Positions 8,477 through 54,143 of a stretch of 64,000 bases of DNA are shown piece after piece (the stretch's first letter is position 1; every line of letters starts with the position of its first letter). The stretch lies in the NCBI GenBank assembly GCA_903827245.1, contig CAIKHO010000042.1, forward strand, positions 62,001 through 126,000, given 5' to 3'. Position numbers and translations under genes: made by a program. The notes below the pieces were generated by a model, which saw nothing but the letters and a program-made list of their open reading frames with translations, did not search any database and had not been told where the DNA came from. The DNA is from an uncultured Opitutia bacterium (GTDB taxonomy: Bacteria > Verrucomicrobiota > Verrucomicrobiia > Opitutales > Opitutaceae).

Positions 8477-9754
8477 ATGACCCTCCTCGAAGATCTCCAG
8501 TGGCGCGGCCTTCTGGCCGATTGCACCGACCTCGACGCGCTGACCCAGCGCCTCGGTCAAGGCCCGGTGACACTGTATTGCGGCTTCGACCCCACCGGTG
8601 ACTCACTGCACGTGGGGCACCTCGTGCCGCAGCTCACCCTGCGGCGTTTCCAGCTGGCTGGGCACCATCCGCTCACGCTCGCTGGCGGAGCGACCGGGAT
8701 GATCGGCGACCCGGGCGGCAAATCCGCCGAGCGCAACCTGCTCACCCGCGAACAACTAGCCTTCAATCTTACACGGATCAAAGCGCAGCTCGAACGCCTC
8801 CTCGATTTTTCCGCCGCCGGTAATCCAGCCCGGATCGTGAACAACGCCGACTGGACCGCCCAGATCAGCTTCCTCGATTTCCTGCGCGATGTGGGCAAGT
8901 ACTTTTCCCTCAGCAGCATGATCGCCAAGGACAGCGTTAAGTCGCGCCTCGGGAGCGAATCCGGCATAAGCTTCACCGAATTCAGCTACCAGCTCCTGCA
9001 GGCGAATGATTTTTGCCACCTGCGCCAGACGCTGAACTGTGAGCTCCAGATCGGCGGCACCGAACAATGGGGCAACATTACTGCCGGCACCGATCTCATC
9101 CGCAAAAAACTCGGCCTGTCCGCCTGGGGCTGGACCTTTCCCCTGATCACCAAGACCGACGGCACCAAGTTCGGCAAAACCGAGGGCGGCGCCGTCTGGC
9201 TCGATCCGGAGAAGACCAGCCCCTACAAGTTCTATCAGTTCTTCTTGAACACGGAGGACGCAAAGGTCGCCGAATATCTCCGCAAATTCACCTTCCTTAC
9301 CCGGGCCGAGATCGAGGCCCTCGAGGCGGCGCACACCGCCAATCCCGGTATCCGTGAAGCCCACAAGGCCCTCGCCCGCGAAGTTACGCGACTGGTTCAT
9401 GGCCAGCCCGCGCTCGACGCCGCGGTCAAAGCCAGCGAGGTCCTCTTTGGCGCCCCGCTGGACGGCATCACCGAGGAAATCTTCCGGGATGTCGCAGGGG
9501 AAATTCCGACAAAGAACCTCGAAAAGACCAAGCTCGCCGGTGCCGGTACTCCGCTAACGGATCTCCTCGTGCATAGCGCCCTTTGTCCCTCCAAGGGTCA
9601 GGCCCGCAAGGATCTCGAAGGCGGCGGGATTTACCTGAACAACGTCCGCGTCGCCGAGGCCGCCCGGGCCGTCACAGTCACCGACCTGCTCTTTGGAAAG
9701 TACCTCCTGCTGCGCAAGGGCAAGCGGACCTATGCGGTGATCAACACCGTCTAG
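8477..9754 (+). CDS. tyrS: Tyrosyl-tRNA synthetase
   Basis: Charges tRNA-Tyr. The 425-residue length fits bacterial TyrRS. Class I signatures are HVGH at residues 45-48 (after YCGFDPTGDSL) and the KMSKS-equivalent KFGKT at about residues 231-235. The C-terminal S4 RNA-binding domain contains GGIYLNNVRV. The frame is open far upstream through the reverse strand of the peroxiredoxin gene, but homology begins at the ATG at 8477. Confidence 0.97.
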   Translation: MTLLEDLQWRGLLADCTDLDALTQRLGQGPVTLYCGFDPTGDSLHVGHLVPQLTLRRFQLAGHHPLTLAGGATGMIGDPGGKSAERNLLTREQLAFNLTRIKAQLERLLDFSAAGNPARIVNNADWTAQISFLDFLRDVGKYFSLSSMIAKDSVKSRLGSESGISFTEFSYQLLQANDFCHLRQTLNCELQIGGTEQWGNITAGTDLIRKKLGLSAWGWTFPLITKTDGTKFGKTEGGAVWLDPEKTSPYKFYQFFLNTEDAKVAEYLRKFTFLTRAEIEALEAAHTANPGIREAHKALAREVTRLVHGQPALDAAVKASEVLFGAPLDGITEEIFRDVAGEIPTKNLEKTKLAGAGTPLTDLLVHSALCPSKGQARKDLEGGGIYLNNVRVAEAARAVTVTDLLFGKYLLLRKGKRTYAVINTV

Positions 9755-9785
9755 CCTCCGCTCGGCGAGGATCGTGCGATCGGAG

Positions 9786-9854
9786 GTAGGGGCGTTCCTC
9801 GCGGACGCCCGGTTTGCAACCATGAAGCGGGCGCCAGCCTGGAATGCCCCATAC
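9786..9854. repeat. Palindromic intergenic element, family A copy 2
   Basis: Second copy of the 66-bp palindrome at 2515-2580. It begins GTAGGGGCGT and ends with a degenerate right arm, GGAATGCCCCATAC. It sits between the convergent ends of tyrS and the HExxH protein gene, the same kind of place as copy 1. Confidence 0.8.
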
Positions 9855-9864
9855 GTGAAGCCGC

Positions 9865-10638
9865 TCAGAACTGGATCGCGCGCGCCCAGAAGCCGTCGTC
9901 CAGTTGCGGGCAGAATTTGAGTAGCCGTGCCTTCAGGAGCGCCACCTTGGCCGCGAGCACATTGTCTCGCTTGACTAGGTCGCGCGCCTGCAGGTCGTTG
10001 AACATGAGGTTGGAAAACAGCTCGGCCTTGTCCTCGCGGGCGTCCGCCATAGAGTAGCGCGTGAGAAATCCCGCGGCCGGATGGGTGACATCGGAGGACG
10101 GCCCGTGCCCCGCGGCGGTGGCCGTCGCCGGGCTGTAGGCAATCCCGGGCGCGTTCAATGCCTCCCACTCCGTGTCCTCGTCGAGGCCGAACGAGGCGAA
10201 GTCGATGATATGGAAAAATTCATGGTGCATGAGCTTGCGCCGGAAACGCTCGGAAAAAACGCCGCTGCGCACGTTGAGGTAAACCGTCGCATTGTCGGAA
10301 ACGGCCACGCCACTGCGCCGCCCGCCACCGTGCAGCAGGTCGCTGCAGAACACGATGCGCTTCAGCCCGGACAACCGCAGCAGCTCCGGCGGGTATTTGC
10401 CGAACTCCTTGCGGAACATGTAGAGGAACAGGTCGATGTCCCCGGGGTTGGCATTCACGCCGTCAATCCGGTCGTGCTCGGTCACAAAGGGAAATTTCTC
10501 CGTGCCGGCCACCAGCTCGACGCCGGCCTTGTCCAGGTACTCCCTTTTCAGCTGGTCAAACAGCTCGCTGCCGCGGGCTGGGCCCGCCGCCATCACGAGG
10601 GCGAAAACCAAGACTGCCGCGCGCACAATTTTGACCAC
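9865..10638 (-). CDS. Secreted putative zinc metallopeptidase (HExxH)
   Basis: Exported protein of about 257 residues with a signal segment at the N terminus ending near AGPARGS. The motif HHEFFHIIDF near residue 140 is a zinc-binding HExxH, and a downstream Glu in EDKAELFSNL could be the third ligand. The substrate is unknown. The frame extends to 10704 inside the PEP-CTERM gene; I chose the GTG at 10638 because it lies after that gene's stop and directly before the signal peptide. The gene follows the PEP-CTERM gene by 22 bases, so the two may be co-transcribed. Confidence 0.7.
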   Translation of the reverse strand: MVKIVRAAVLVFALVMAAGPARGSELFDQLKREYLDKAGVELVAGTEKFPFVTEHDRIDGVNANPGDIDLFLYMFRKEFGKYPPELLRLSGLKRIVFCSDLLHGGGRRSGVAVSDNATVYLNVRSGVFSERFRRKLMHHEFFHIIDFASFGLDEDTEWEALNAPGIAYSPATATAAGHGPSSDVTHPAAGFLTRYSMADAREDKAELFSNLMFNDLQARDLVKRDNVLAAKVALLKARLLKFCPQLDDGFWARAIQF

Positions 10639-46663: not shown

Positions 46664-46871
46664 CCAAATTAAAACGTTAAGGAGCGTTCCCTGAGCCGGT
46701 TGAAGATGTCATCTCGACCCGGTCGCGCGAGCCAAAAAAAAGCGGGGCGCGCTTTCATCTAATTTTTGCACATGGCCCCGGTCCGGCGTCTGCTCCCAGC
46801 CGCCGAAGTTTGCCGCAATGTCACCGATCCGCCACCCGTCCGCCACGGCCCCGGGCGATGCTGGCGTGCCA

Positions 46872-47267
46872 ATGCCTGCCACCATTCTGACCGTGGATGA
46901 CGAACGCGATGTCACCGACCTGGTCCATTTTCACCTCACCAAGGCCGGGTACCGGGTGCTGACGGCGTCCTGCGGTCGCGAGGCGCTTGAGACCGTCCGG
47001 CTCATCTCGCCCGACCTGATCCTGCTCGACCTGATGCTACCCGACGTGGACGGCTTTGCGATCTGCGAGATCCTGCGCCGGCAGGCCGCGACCGCCACGA
47101 TTCCCATCGTCATTCTCACCGCCTGGGCCACGACCGACGCCCAGAGCCTCGGCCTTGAGCTCGGGGCGCTCGACTACATGACAAAGCCCTTCAGTCCCCG
47201 GGAAATGGTCGAGCGGGTCCGGCGCTTGCTCGACCTTCGCCCCGCTTCCGCTAGCGTCGGCGGGTGA
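46872..47267 (+). CDS. Response regulator receiver protein
   Basis: A 131-residue receiver domain: ILTVDDERDVTDLV, LILLDLMLPDVDGFAI with the phospho-Asp, VILTAWATT, and DYMTKPFSPREMV. The ATG at 46872 gives the standard N terminus; an earlier start at 46818 adds only linker-like residues. Its end overlaps the next gene (Gre-like) by 4 bases, so translation is coupled. No kinase is adjacent. Confidence 0.87.
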   Translation: MPATILTVDDERDVTDLVHFHLTKAGYRVLTASCGREALETVRLISPDLILLDLMLPDVDGFAICEILRRQAATATIPIVILTAWATTDAQSLGLELGALDYMTKPFSPREMVERVRRLLDLRPASASVGG

Positions 47268-49680: not shown

Positions 49681-52128
49681 ATGCTTAATGTAAGTCGTAT
49701 GCCCCTGCGGTGGCGGCTGACCCTGCTGATCACCCTCGTCAGCACGCTTACCCTCGGAGCGGCGTTCGGCGGTTATTTCGGCTTCGAGGTGCTTCGACTC
49801 CAGGACGATGTCACGAAGAACTCGCAGGAATTCACCAGCCAGCTCGCCGTCACGGTCAGCGACTTCCTTGCCAGCGGGTCCGAACCCAGCACCAAAGACT
49901 GGCAGAACTGGATCACCAACCACGACACGATCGTCGCCGTGGTGGTCTATTCACCAACCGGGAAAGTCCTTTCGAGCTATATCCGTCCCGGCTCGGGGGC
50001 ATCCATCGGTTCGCTGCGGTCGGCCTATGTGAATTTTTCCACCGATGAGGCAGTGATCCCGACCAAGCTGGTCGACCGGAACAACCGCCGGCTCGGCACC
50101 CTTGTGCTGACAGCGCGTGCAACCGAAGAGGCCTCGACCCGTCTGAACGAGCCGCTGAAGGCCATGGGAGCGCTTTTCCTCCTGTCGATGCTGGGCTCGC
50201 TCTTCGTGTCGCGCTTCCTCCAGCGCGGCATCTCGGAGCCTATCACCCAACTCGCGCAAATCGCCCGCCGCGTCGCCGACCAGGGCGACTATACGGTCCG
50301 CGCCGAGGCCAAGGGCGGTGGCGAGACCGTCGTCCTCGTCGAGGCGTTCAACTCGATGCTGACCACGATCCAGCAGCGCGATGCCGAGCTGGTGGTGGCG
50401 AAGAACAACGCGGAAAAGGCCCGCGAGCGGCTGGCGGAGATCAACGCCATGCTCGAGGAGGCCAACCGCACCCTCGAGGCCAAGGTCGCCGAGCGCACCG
50501 TCGAGCTGCACAAGGCGATGACTGCCGCGCGCGACGCCAATCAGGCCAAGAGCTCCTTCCTCGCCAAGATGAGCCATGAGCTGCGGACGCCGATGAACGC
50601 CATCATCGGTTATGCCGAGATGCTCATCGAGGACGCCGGCGACCGCGGCGACAACGCCGCCATCGCCGACCTGCGCAAGATCCTCAGCGCCGCCCGCCAC
50701 CTCCTCGGCCTGATCAACGACGTGCTCGACCTCTCCAAGATCGAGGCCGGCAAGATGGACCTCTACCTCGAGTCCTTCGATGTCGCCACGCTCGTCCACG
50801 ACGTCATTCCCACCGCGCAGCCGCTGATCGACCGCAACAAGAACCAGTTGACGGTGGATTGCCCGGAAACGTTCGGCACCATGCGCGCCGATGCCACCAA
50901 GCTGCGGCAGATCCTGCTGAACCTGCTGAGCAACGCCTCGAAGTTCACCGACGAGGGGGTCGTCGCCCTCGAGGTGGTGCGCGACCAGACCGGGCCGCGG
51001 GAAATGATCGTCTTCCGGGTGCGCGACAGCGGCATCGGGATGACCCCGGAGCAAATGAGCCGGCTCTTCCAGGTCTTCAGCCAGGCCGACCACTCGACCT
51101 CGGCCAAGTTCGGGGGTACCGGACTGGGTCTCGCCATTTCCCGGCAGTTTGCCCGCCTTATGGGCGGCGACATCACCGTGGACAGCAGGATGGGCGACGG
51201 CTCCGTCTTCACCGTGCGCATTCCCGCGGAAGTCGCCCCGGTCAAGGCGACGCCGGATGAACCCGCCCCCGCCGCCGAACCGGCCAAGCCCGCCGCCGCC
51301 ATTCCGCCGCCGGCCCCCGCCGCGCGCCGGGGCCGCGTGCTGGTCATCGACCGCGATGATGCCGTGAGCACCATGCTGCAGGACCTGCTCGGGCACGAGG
51401 GCTACGCCGTCAGCTGCGCCCGCAGTGCGGAGGAGGCCGTCACCCGCGCCCGCGAAGCCACGCCCCATGTGGTGATTCTCGACATCCTGACCCCCGGCGC
51501 CGAGGGCGGTAACATCCTGGTGCAACTCAAGGCCCATCCCATCTTCGCCAACCTGCCCTTCGTCCTGCTGACGATGAATGCCAACGCTTCCGGCGGACTC
51601 GTCGCCGGCGCCGAGGACTATGTGACCAAGCCGATCGACGGCGCCCGCCTGCTGGCCCTCCTGGCCAGGCGCAACGCCGCCCGGGGCGAAACCTCGATCA
51701 TGGTCGTGGAGGACGACACCCCGACCCGGGACATGATTGTGCGCCTGCTCGAACGCGAGGGCTGGCCCGCGCTGCAGGCGGAAAACGGCCGCGTCGCCCT
51801 CAGCCTGCTCGAGCAGCACACTCCGTCCGTCGTGCTCCTCGATCTGCTCATGCCCGAGCTCGACGGCTTCTCCGTGCTGCGCGCCATGCGCGCCCATGCC
51901 GTGTGGCGCGACATCCCGGTGGTCGTGCTCACGTCCCTCGATCTCACCGCGGAAGTCCGGGGCTTCCTCGAGCAGCAGGCCGAGCGCGTGCTGCAAAAGG
52001 GCAGTTACTCGCGCGATGAGCTGCTGCGCGAGGTGCGGGACTCCGTGGAGGAATTCACGCGCCGCCGCGGACGCAGCCAGGCGCCCTTTGCCACCCGCCC
52101 GGGCGCCGTGACCGCCACCACCAGCTGA
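49681..52128 (+). CDS. Membrane hybrid sensor histidine kinase with two receivers
   Basis: An 815-residue sensor kinase. It has TM1 (about 12-34), an extracytoplasmic sensor loop, TM2 (about 160-180), HAMP, a coiled coil (about 235-285), HisKA with [12 protein letters not shown] (His299), HATPase ([29 protein letters not shown]), a Pro/Ala linker, and two receivers. The second receiver has [14 protein letters not shown]. The first has [14 protein letters not shown] and ends in DYVTKPIDG. It begins a three-gene run with a single receiver 12 bases downstream and an adenylate cyclase. Confidence 0.93.
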
Positions 52129-52140
52129 CCTTTCATTCCC

Positions 52141-52515
52141 ATGGCCAAAATATTACTCGTCGAGGACAACGAAATGAACCGTGACATGCTCGGGCGCCGC
52201 CTCGAGAAGCGCGGCTACAAGCTGGCCATCGCCGCGGACGGTCCCACCGGCCTCACCCTCGCCCACAGCGAAAAGCCCGACCTGATCCTCATGGACATGA
52301 GCCTGCCTGGCATTGACGGGTGGGAAGCGAGCCGCCAGCTGAAAGCCGACCCCGCCACCGCCTCGATCCCCATTATCGCGCTGACCGCCCACGCCATGGC
52401 CGAGGATCGCGAAAAGGCCTTGGCCGCCGGTTGCAACGAATACGAAACCAAGCCGGTCGAGCTGACGAGCCTGCTAGCCAAGATCGAGGCCTTGCTGCCC
52501 AAACCAGGTGCATGA
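52141..52515 (+). CDS. Single-domain response regulator
   Basis: A 124-residue CheY/DivK-like receiver with LLVEDNEMNRDMLG, LILMDMSLPGIDGWEA with the phospho-Asp, LTAHAM, and ETKPVELTSL. It lies 12 bases after the hybrid kinase and overlaps the cyclase gene by 4 bases (ATGA), so it probably shuttles phosphate between them. This link is inferred from order. Confidence 0.93.
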   Translation: MAKILLVEDNEMNRDMLGRRLEKRGYKLAIAADGPTGLTLAHSEKPDLILMDMSLPGIDGWEASRQLKADPATASIPIIALTAHAMAEDREKALAAGCNEYETKPVELTSLLAKIEALLPKPGA

Positions 52516-54143
52516 GCGGAGACCCGTCCAGCAACGTTGCCCCTGAGGCTGTCACGTCGGAGCACACCCGCCCGCTGTGGCCCTTGCCGCCCGGGATCGA
52601 TGAAGAGGCGCTCAAGCGGCTGCGCCACGACCTGCGCACCCCCCTCAACCAGATCATCGGCTACACCGAGATGCTGATCGAGACCGCGGCCGAGGGCGGC
52701 TCGACCACGCTCGCCGAGGATCTGCAGCACCTCCACGCCTCGGGCAGCCAGATCCTCGCGCTGCTCAACGAGGGACTCGCGCAGTGGAAGGTCGAGGCCG
52801 GCAAGGTCGACCTCATCGCCCTCCGGCGCAGCCTGCTGGGCCCCCTCAATGGCGTCCTCGGCTACCGCGATCTCTGCGAGGAAACCGCCCGCGCCCTCGG
52901 CCTGGCTGAAACCGTGGCCGACCTCGAGAAGGTCTCCCTCGCCTCGCGCAACCTCCGGAAAATGCTCGAGCAGGAATCGTTTGCCGAGCGCTACCACCTG
53001 GGCACGCCCCAGCCGATGACGGGAGGATCCGTTCCGCCCATCCCCGCCGGCGGCACGCGCAGCGCGGGCGGCGGCCCCAACAGCTCCATCACCCCCATCA
53101 CCGGACACCTGTTGATTGTCGACGACGAGCCGCTCAACCGCGAAATGCTCGTGCGCCGCCTCAATCGCATGGGCTTCACCGCCGTCGGCGCCGAGAACGG
53201 GCTGGTCGCCCTCGATGTCATCACCCGGGAATCGTTCGACCTCGTCCTCCTCGATATCCTCATGCCCGTGCTGGACGGCTTCCAGACGCTCGAGCGGCTC
53301 AAGGCCGACGAGAAGCTGAAACACATCCCGGTCATCATGCTGACCGCCCTCGACGAGGTGTCCGCCACCGTGCGCTGCATCGAGGCCGGCGCCGAGGACT
53401 ACGTGCCCAAGCCGTTCAACCCCGTCATTCTCCGCGCCCGCATCGGCGCCTCCCTGGAAAAAAAGCGCCTGCGCGACAAGGAACGCGCCCACCTCGTCGA
53501 GATTCAGGCCGAGCGCGCCAAGTCCGAGCGACTCCTGCTCAACATCCTGCCGAAGGCGATCGGCGACCGCCTCAAGGGCGGCGAGGAAACCATCGTCGAC
53601 GCGGTGGCCAACGCCACCGTCATGTTCGCCGACATCGTCAACTTCACCGGCATCGCGGCCGAGCTCTCGCCCGCCCGGACCGTGGCGCGGCTCAACGAGA
53701 TTTTCTCGGACTTCGACCTGCTCGTCGAGGGCATGGGCGTGGAGAAGATCAAGACCATCGGTGATTCGTACATGCTGGTCGGCGGCGTTCCCCTCCCCGT
53801 GCCGGACCACGCCGTGCGCTGCGCCGACATGGCCCTGGCGATGCTCGAGGTCATGTCCGTCTTCAACCAGCGCAACAACGTGAACTGGCAGATCCGGATC
53901 GGGATGCACACCGGGCCGCTCGTCGCGGGCATCATTGGCTCCAAGAAATTCGCCTACGATCTCTGGGGCGATACCGTCAACATCGCCAGCCGGCTCGAGT
54001 CGCACGGCGAGGCGGGCGTCATCCAGGTCTCGGACGCCACCGCCGAACTCCTCAAGCCCCACTTCATCCTCGAGCCCCGCGGCGCAGTCGAGCTGAAGCA
54101 CCGCGGCCAGATGACGGCCTACCGCCTCGTCAGCCGGAAGTAG
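52512..54143 (+). CDS. Class III adenylate cyclase with phospho-acceptor and receiver domains
   Basis: Probably makes cAMP under phosphorelay control. The 543-residue product has an N-terminal HisKA-like helix with RHDLRTPLNQIIGYTEML (His39) but no ATPase domain. A receiver (about 197-315) has LLIVDDEPLNREM and VLLDILMPVLDGF. The cyclase domain (about 360-540) has both metal aspartates (MFADIVNFTG; IKTIGDSYM), the adenine-selecting Lys and Asp (VEKIKTIGD; AYDLWGDT), and NIASR at the transition-state site. The ATG at 52512 overlaps the preceding stop. All catalytic residues are present. Confidence 0.92.
   Translation: MSGDPSSNVAPEAVTSEHTRPLWPLPPGIDEEALKRLRHDLRTPLNQIIGYTEMLIETAAEGGSTTLAEDLQHLHASGSQILALLNEGLAQWKVEAGKVDLIALRRSLLGPLNGVLGYRDLCEETARALGLAETVADLEKVSLASRNLRKMLEQESFAERYHLGTPQPMTGGSVPPIPAGGTRSAGGGPNSSITPITGHLLIVDDEPLNREMLVRRLNRMGFTAVGAENGLVALDVITRESFDLVLLDILMPVLDGFQTLERLKADEKLKHIPVIMLTALDEVSATVRCIEAGAEDYVPKPFNPVILRARIGASLEKKRLRDKERAHLVEIQAERAKSERLLLNILPKAIGDRLKGGEETIVDAVANATVMFADIVNFTGIAAELSPARTVARLNEIFSDFDLLVEGMGVEKIKTIGDSYMLVGGVPLPVPDHAVRCADMALAMLEVMSVFNQRNNVNWQIRIGMHTGPLVAGIIGSKKFAYDLWGDTVNIASRLESHGEAGVIQVSDATAELLKPHFILEPRGAVELKHRGQMTAYRLVSRK

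Follow-up and report, generated by a model that had tools for sequence, protein, structure and literature searches.

What can a histidine-bearing dimerisation helix do in a protein that carries no ATPase domain? The question is raised by a cyclase encoded in the window, that is, the whole stretch of 64,000 nucleotides of contig CAIKHO010000042.1 from an uncultured Opitutia bacterium, where the cyclase gene stands directly behind the genes of a membrane hybrid histidine kinase and of a single-domain receiver. The answer that we favour, and which seems to us evenly poised between right and wrong, is that the three products would form a co-translated phosphorelay that sets the level of cyclic AMP (cAMP), through a phosphotransfer adaptor fused to the output and capable of being swapped between outputs.

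An operon of kinase, receiver and cyclase

Judged from their arrangement, the three genes form an operon: they are consecutive, with a 12-base gap and then a 4-base overlap, and the coordinates given for them when the window was first read from its letters alone (the sequence-only reading) were confirmed. The description of the products in that reading was also borne out, since Pfam and hydropathy agree on a membrane hybrid kinase with two receivers, and Pfam and residue checks on a cyclase with a receiver, all catalytic residues, a histidine at position 39 and no ATPase domain. In the kinase, Pfam recognizes HAMP, HisKA, HATPase_c and two Response_reg stretches, with phospho-acceptor Asp601 in the first receiver (REC1) and Asp721 in the second (REC2); two stretches, residues 13-31 and about 158-180, exceed a hydropathy of 1.6, and the Pfam scan of this kinase gave no Hpt match. 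The lone receiver consists of one Response_reg domain with phospho-acceptor Asp52. The cyclase protein, without any stretch above hydropathy 1.6, comprises a HisKA match at residues 32-87 (E 1.2e-11), a Response_reg at 201-311 (E 2.6e-28) and a Guanylate_cyc domain (PF00211) at 365-539 (E 1.1e-58). The residues which we take to be the two metal-binding Asp (D374, D418), the adenine-selecting Lys and Asp (K414, D483) and the transition-state Asn and Arg (N490, R494) are present in the window and in 36/36 relatives, so that by residue criteria this is an adenylate-type class III cyclase with cAMP as its predicted product. The protein has no HATPase match at E up to 1, for which reason the idea that it is itself a kinase was rejected; nor does it, or its first 203 residues, match Hpt (PF01627) at E up to 1, and its front end can therefore only work like an HPt, not be a Pfam Hpt.

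The relatives come from one scan of genome contigs, from which the best 80 of 270 loci were taken (loci are cited here by L numbers, genomes by G numbers). Among these 80, 36 encode a HisKA-REC-cyclase protein, all from Opitutae/Verrucomicrobia and one of them (L067) cut at its start; the nearest named cyclase relatives within the best 80 of 270 loci are Opitutae. Left out of the counts were L006-L009, whose proteins are identical to those of L043, L047, L051 and L064, as well as L068 and L071, in which the HisKA is lost at the contig end, and relatives with another output. The 36 are not independent of each other, so that all counts, and the Fisher value given below, are inflated by kinship.

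The sequence-only reading had staked its relay on His39, on the receiver Asp of the cyclase and on the neighbouring partner genes, and among the 36 close relatives none of them proved to be missing. His39 is present in 35/35 relatives that include that position, and D204, D205, D248 and K300 of the cyclase's canonical receiver each in 36/36. A receiver lies directly upstream of the cyclase in 35/36 relatives, and a kinase over the cut-offs in 31/35; the remaining four have a kinase fragment, which leaves the contig at its start in L040, L050 and L058, and in L049 starts at the contig start and ends early, without receivers. In other words, receiver and kinase adjoin the cyclase in these close relatives wherever the contig has room. 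An in-frame NTGA overlap joins receiver and cyclase in 36/36 loci with both genes (35 relatives and the cyanobacterium Oculatella, L073), in 26 of them as ATGA. The lone receiver has the canonical receiver residues E8, D9, D52, T82 and K104, each in 35/35 relatives, and the phospho-Asp of the kinase is found in 30/31 relatives in REC1 and likewise in REC2, there with one gap. A chance pattern or a mis-called gene was rejected on the Pfam matches, the residue conservation and the NTGA overlap across relatives; for the gene order, we regard chance as untenable, a judgement that draws on the Pfam E-values and on finding the arrangement again in 35 relatives.

Several observations stand beside these. 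In L037 (2050-4881), kinase and lone receiver are one protein of 943 amino acids, with the lone receiver fused as a third receiver. In the window, Pfam finds a second single-domain receiver at 46818-47267, approximately 2.4 kb upstream of the kinase, and several relatives (e.g., L047, L048, L053, L054) also have receivers some kb upstream of the trio. In the congener G002 (L118, C22:46000-58000), the receiver is kept, kinase residues 1-218 are unmatched and the cyclase matches only at residues 1-99, in flanks that are syntenic on both sides; this remnant, known from one assembly, could be due either to decay or to misassembly. A promoter and terminator scan found 1 and 4 sites, respectively, where shuffled sequence gave 0.6 and 3.3, and was uninformative.

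A duplicated hairpin with a movable histidine

The front end of the cyclase proved to be more than the single HisKA-like helix that the sequence-only reading had seen in it: the hairpin of His39 is there, and a second hairpin, which had been overlooked, follows it, making the front end a tandem HisKA. Aligned with hhalign, residues 30-99 and 100-165 match with Prob 98.9 and E 2e-17 over 63 columns without gaps, and against either repeat, five segments taken from this protein as controls score below 1%. In the window, the second hairpin has Arg106 at the position of the histidine; across the 36 relatives this position is R in 23, H in 4, Q in 4, E in 2, and L, S and D in 1 each. Scanned alone, repeat 2 matches Pfam HisKA in 13/21 members (the window, 19 of the 36 relatives and the betaproteobacterial L082), the window's own copy being unmatched. 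At least one His is retained in every tandem in which both H-boxes were read; the loss of the other is a tendency, not a rule.

The opposite placement is found in rhizobia. A tblastn search of PLSDB plasmids at E 1e-30 gave 129 records, 89 of them from Sinorhizobium and 74 with a query coverage of at least 80%. Ten plasmid stretches were read, of which eight encode a tandem HisKA-REC-cyclase and two a REC-cyclase without HisKA (Cupriavidus L163, Rhizobium sullae L164). All eight tandems, including that of S. meliloti 1021 (L159), carry Gln at the His position of copy one and a canonical motif (LRHDLRTP or FRHDLRTP) in copy two, the order of the window being thus reversed, with the degenerate copy first and the His-bearing copy second. 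The rhizobial repeat is recovered by hhalign from five of the eight sequences (Prob 97.4, E 1.2e-11); Pfam recognizes two HisKA stretches in R. gallicum and one in S. meliloti 1021. Receiver and kinase lie upstream in each of the eight loci, with a partial receiver match in L161; in two of the eight stretches (L157, L160) the kinase is divided between two frames. This reversed placement suggests a route by which part of a dimeric kinase could have become a phosphotransfer domain of one chain.

At E 1e-17, a profile of the tandem matches 18/387 genomes of the phylum, a figure that includes kinases and hence is no count of tandem proteins; cyclase-sized matches also occur, beyond the loci read, in G109, G152, G185, G304, G359 and G387. 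In the bacterium's own genome the profile picks up the neighbouring kinase (G000:C42:112551) as its second match, and in most of the other tandem-match genomes listed the next match is a kinase-size frame about 2 kb away, from which it follows that the hairpins of cyclase and kinase are close kin. A sweep of the class of L082, at the stricter E of 1e-30, yielded 1/369 genomes, that of L082 itself.

The output, too, is exchanged. HisKA-REC front ends related to that of the window's cyclase are found in the vicinity of a comparable kinase and lone receiver, in variable gene order, and are joined to SpoIIE in G007 and G008, with one hairpin; to HD-GYP in L082; and to a HATPase-bearing module (G144, L152), these last two outputs being preceded by two HisKA stretches, both with His. 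G021 and G301 have a HisKA-REC without output beside kinase and lone receiver, and in G342 (L155) the contig ends before any output. G301 (L154:3668-5260, 9599-10561) also encodes, about 4 kb upstream of its output-less trio, a HisKA-REC-cyclase as a separate protein, possibly a split of relay and output.

Table 1. Features of the kinase–receiver–cyclase locus, and Hpt matches elsewhere in the same genome
Feature	Position	Strand	Basis
Membrane hybrid histidine kinase gene, 815 amino acids	49681..52128	+	Pfam; hydropathy; residue conservation
Kinase phospho-acceptor His299	50575..50577	+	H in 31/31 relatives, next Glu in 31/31
Kinase–receiver gene spacer, 12 bases	52129..52140	+	
Single-domain receiver gene, 124 amino acids	52141..52515	+	Pfam; residue conservation
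ATGA overlap (4 bases), receiver stop/cyclase start	52512..52515	+	
Cyclase gene, 543 amino acids: tandem HisKA - REC - class III cyclase	52512..54143	+	
First HisKA hairpin, residues 30-99	52599..52808	+	Pfam HisKA E 1.2e-11; His39 at 52626-52628
Second, degenerate HisKA-like hairpin, residues 100-165	52809..53006	+	hhalign to first repeat
Cyclase REC, residues 201-311	53112..53444	+	Pfam; Asp248 at 53253-53255
REC–cyclase linker, residues 312-364	53445..53603	+	many invariant alignment columns
Class III cyclase catalytic domain, residues 365-539	53604..54128	+	Pfam E 1.1e-58
Hpt matches in own genome	L167 G000:C70:47194-47430; L168 C44:4491-4718		

A proposed relay through the hairpin and its rivals

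If the relay is accepted, the membrane kinase, the motifs of which are intact, would autophosphorylate on His299 and hand the phosphate to an Asp, either in one of its own receivers or, more probably, in the lone receiver (Asp52); His39 at the front of the cyclase would be the next to receive it and Asp248 the last, and the cyclase receiver thus phosphorylated would act on the cyclase dimer via a presumably helical linker, with an effect on cAMP of conjectural sign. In that case the four-helix bundle that a kinase builds from two chains could be made up here by both hairpins of a single chain, serving as an HPt-like domain, an idea suggested by the duplication and by the fact that no tandem in which both H-boxes were read has lost both its His. 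Three features together point to phosphotransfer: the His is conserved in a protein that lacks an ATPase, the acid beside it is often lost, and the lone receiver is strictly conserved. According to the accessible part of PMC11371814, this acid is needed for the phosphorylation of the His by the kinase. It is present in 31/31 kinases and 15/35 cyclases (Fisher p 8e-8, rows not independent), the residue after His39 being A in 14, D in 13, S in 5, E in 2 and T in 1; as it is lost in 20/35 cyclases and kept in all the kinases, phosphotransfer fits better than kinase action. In a more general form, to which we would commit ourselves somewhat less than to the relay, the duplicated dimerisation hairpin may be a self-contained four-helix bundle, one copy of which, the first or the second according to lineage, tends to lose its His, and this module with its receiver may constitute a plug-in front end for cyclase, SpoIIE phosphatase, HD-GYP or ATPase module, each served by a kernel of two-receiver hybrid kinase and lone receiver.

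A number of observations weigh against these proposals, and concern (i) the receivers, as REC1 of the kinase is partly degenerate, its first acid being A or G in 6/31 relatives and its Thr/Ser lost in 3/31, with Arg558 in the window where most relatives carry an acid; to judge by these counts the lone receiver is more tightly constrained than REC1, and it could, instead of carrying phosphate, be a DivK-like allosteric regulator; (ii) the HisKA itself, because more distant REC-cyclases without it stand in trios with a two-receiver kinase and a lone receiver (Oculatella L073, R. sullae L164), and others (L072, L163) beside a kinase without this kernel, so that not all such systems require the HisKA, and a scan of four kinases at these loci for a compensating Hpt (two of the three present at L073, one at L164, one at L072) gave none; (iii) the tandem, as both copies have His in four relatives, in L082 and in L152, and the SpoIIE forms and L155 carry a single hairpin, the tandem being therefore not essential; (iv) and finally, the own genome, a 3.55 Mb assembly of 91 contigs (G000), which at other positions contains two frames, of 124 and 160 amino acids, that match Hpt, so that the kinase could be served by a free HPt. 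The multi-step relay first proposed for this locus is partly supported, by the conservation of partner genes and phospho-sites in close relatives.

The alternative that survives best, although we consider it unlikely, is that the tandem HisKA is a platform for dimerisation or docking only, the kinase phosphorylating Asp248 directly and His39 being a structural relic. The HisKA-less REC-cyclases of the related trios L073 and L164 would agree with it, as would an archaeal census in which, in the part accessible, HisKA response regulators without HATPase are considered likely to dimerise (PMC5847659). However, His39 is kept in 35/35 while its neighbour varies between A, D, S, E and T, which would be odd for a merely structural residue, and in 8/8 rhizobial tandem loci it is the other copy that retains the His.

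More doubtful still is a phosphate sink, in which lone receiver and His39 would drain Asp248 and reset it, the relay lowering cAMP. The HisKA-REC proteins of G021 and G301, which have no output and lie next to this kind of kinase and receiver, could be taken in this sense, but nothing in the sequence indicates a direction, and the coupled synthesis of receiver and cyclase favours neither sign. Least probable among the explanations weighed is a split kinase, where kinase and cyclase would share a mixed bundle, in which the ATPase of the membrane kinase phosphorylates His39 in trans and His39 in turn supplies both Asp248 and the lone receiver: the profile matches to neighbouring kinases given above would suit it, but the acid reported as needed for such phosphorylation is missing in 20/35 relatives.

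As for what may bind the product, the own genome has four class III cyclase domains and no match to HTH_Crp_2, the CRP-type domain that 14/14 control genomes match; cyclic-nucleotide-binding domains occur there in a single-domain protein of 117 amino acids and in a two-domain protein (L119:1459-1812, L120:880-1839). CRP-type matches are found in 30/38 genomes of relatives at E 0.001 and in 18/38 over the family cut-off, the latter including the trio-bearing G011, G017, G018 and G022.

Comparison with known systems

A literature search, the coverage of which left out most subscription papers and which is thus no proof of absence, found neither a HisKA-REC-cyclase with partner kinase and receiver, nor a tandem HisKA in a regulator, nor a reversed His position. 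The accessible parts of two papers on cAMP in S. meliloti (PMC13001267, PMC10463352) have no passage on the trio, and the ‘Tandem DHp’ of PMC3899027 denotes, in the part seen, a DHp plus CA. What is already known are phosphorylation-controlled cyclases, kinase-derived phosphotransferases (ChpT, PhyT) and archaeal HisKA regulators without ATPase.

The cyanobacterial CyaC unites kinase, receivers and cyclase in a single polypeptide. To go by the title of Kasahara and Ohmori (1999), it is reportedly an adenylate cyclase activated by autophosphorylation and then phosphotransfer. The likeness lies in an adenylate cyclase controlled by phosphorylation; in the window, in contrast, the system is distributed over three genes and the cyclase is without an ATPase domain.

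In the relay Spo0F-Spo0B-Spo0A, the order of the parts is receiver, His protein and output regulator, a logic that we propose for the trio as well. Spo0B and ChpT are described, in the accessible text of PMC3433190, as kinase-like His proteins that take phosphate from a receiver upstream of them and deliver it to an output regulator; they are separate proteins with a four-helix bundle formed by two subunits, and ChpT has an ATPase-like domain, whereas the unit in the window has two hairpins in one chain, in which no ATPase remnant was found, and is fused to its output. The Pak-SdrG-PhyT-PhyR system of Sphingomonas melonis runs, as the available portion of PMC5898713 presents it, from a kinase to a single-domain receiver, a kinase-derived phosphotransferase and an output regulator, the same order of relay parts as that proposed for the trio. 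PhyT, however, is membrane-anchored with a degenerate ATPase domain, the genes of the kinase and SdrG are scattered, and the output is sigma-factor mimicry (PMC5898713).

The archaeal regulators are similar in combining REC with a HisKA and no HATPase; in the part of the census accessible to us they have not been studied experimentally and their partners are unknown (PMC5847659), and they carry PAS/GAF domains, where the system in the window has partner genes, a tandem HisKA and an enzyme as output. Since the ATPase-less HisKA proteins described here come with likely partner genes and a defined enzyme output, and occur also in the laboratory strain S. meliloti 1021, the role of such a HisKA becomes directly testable.

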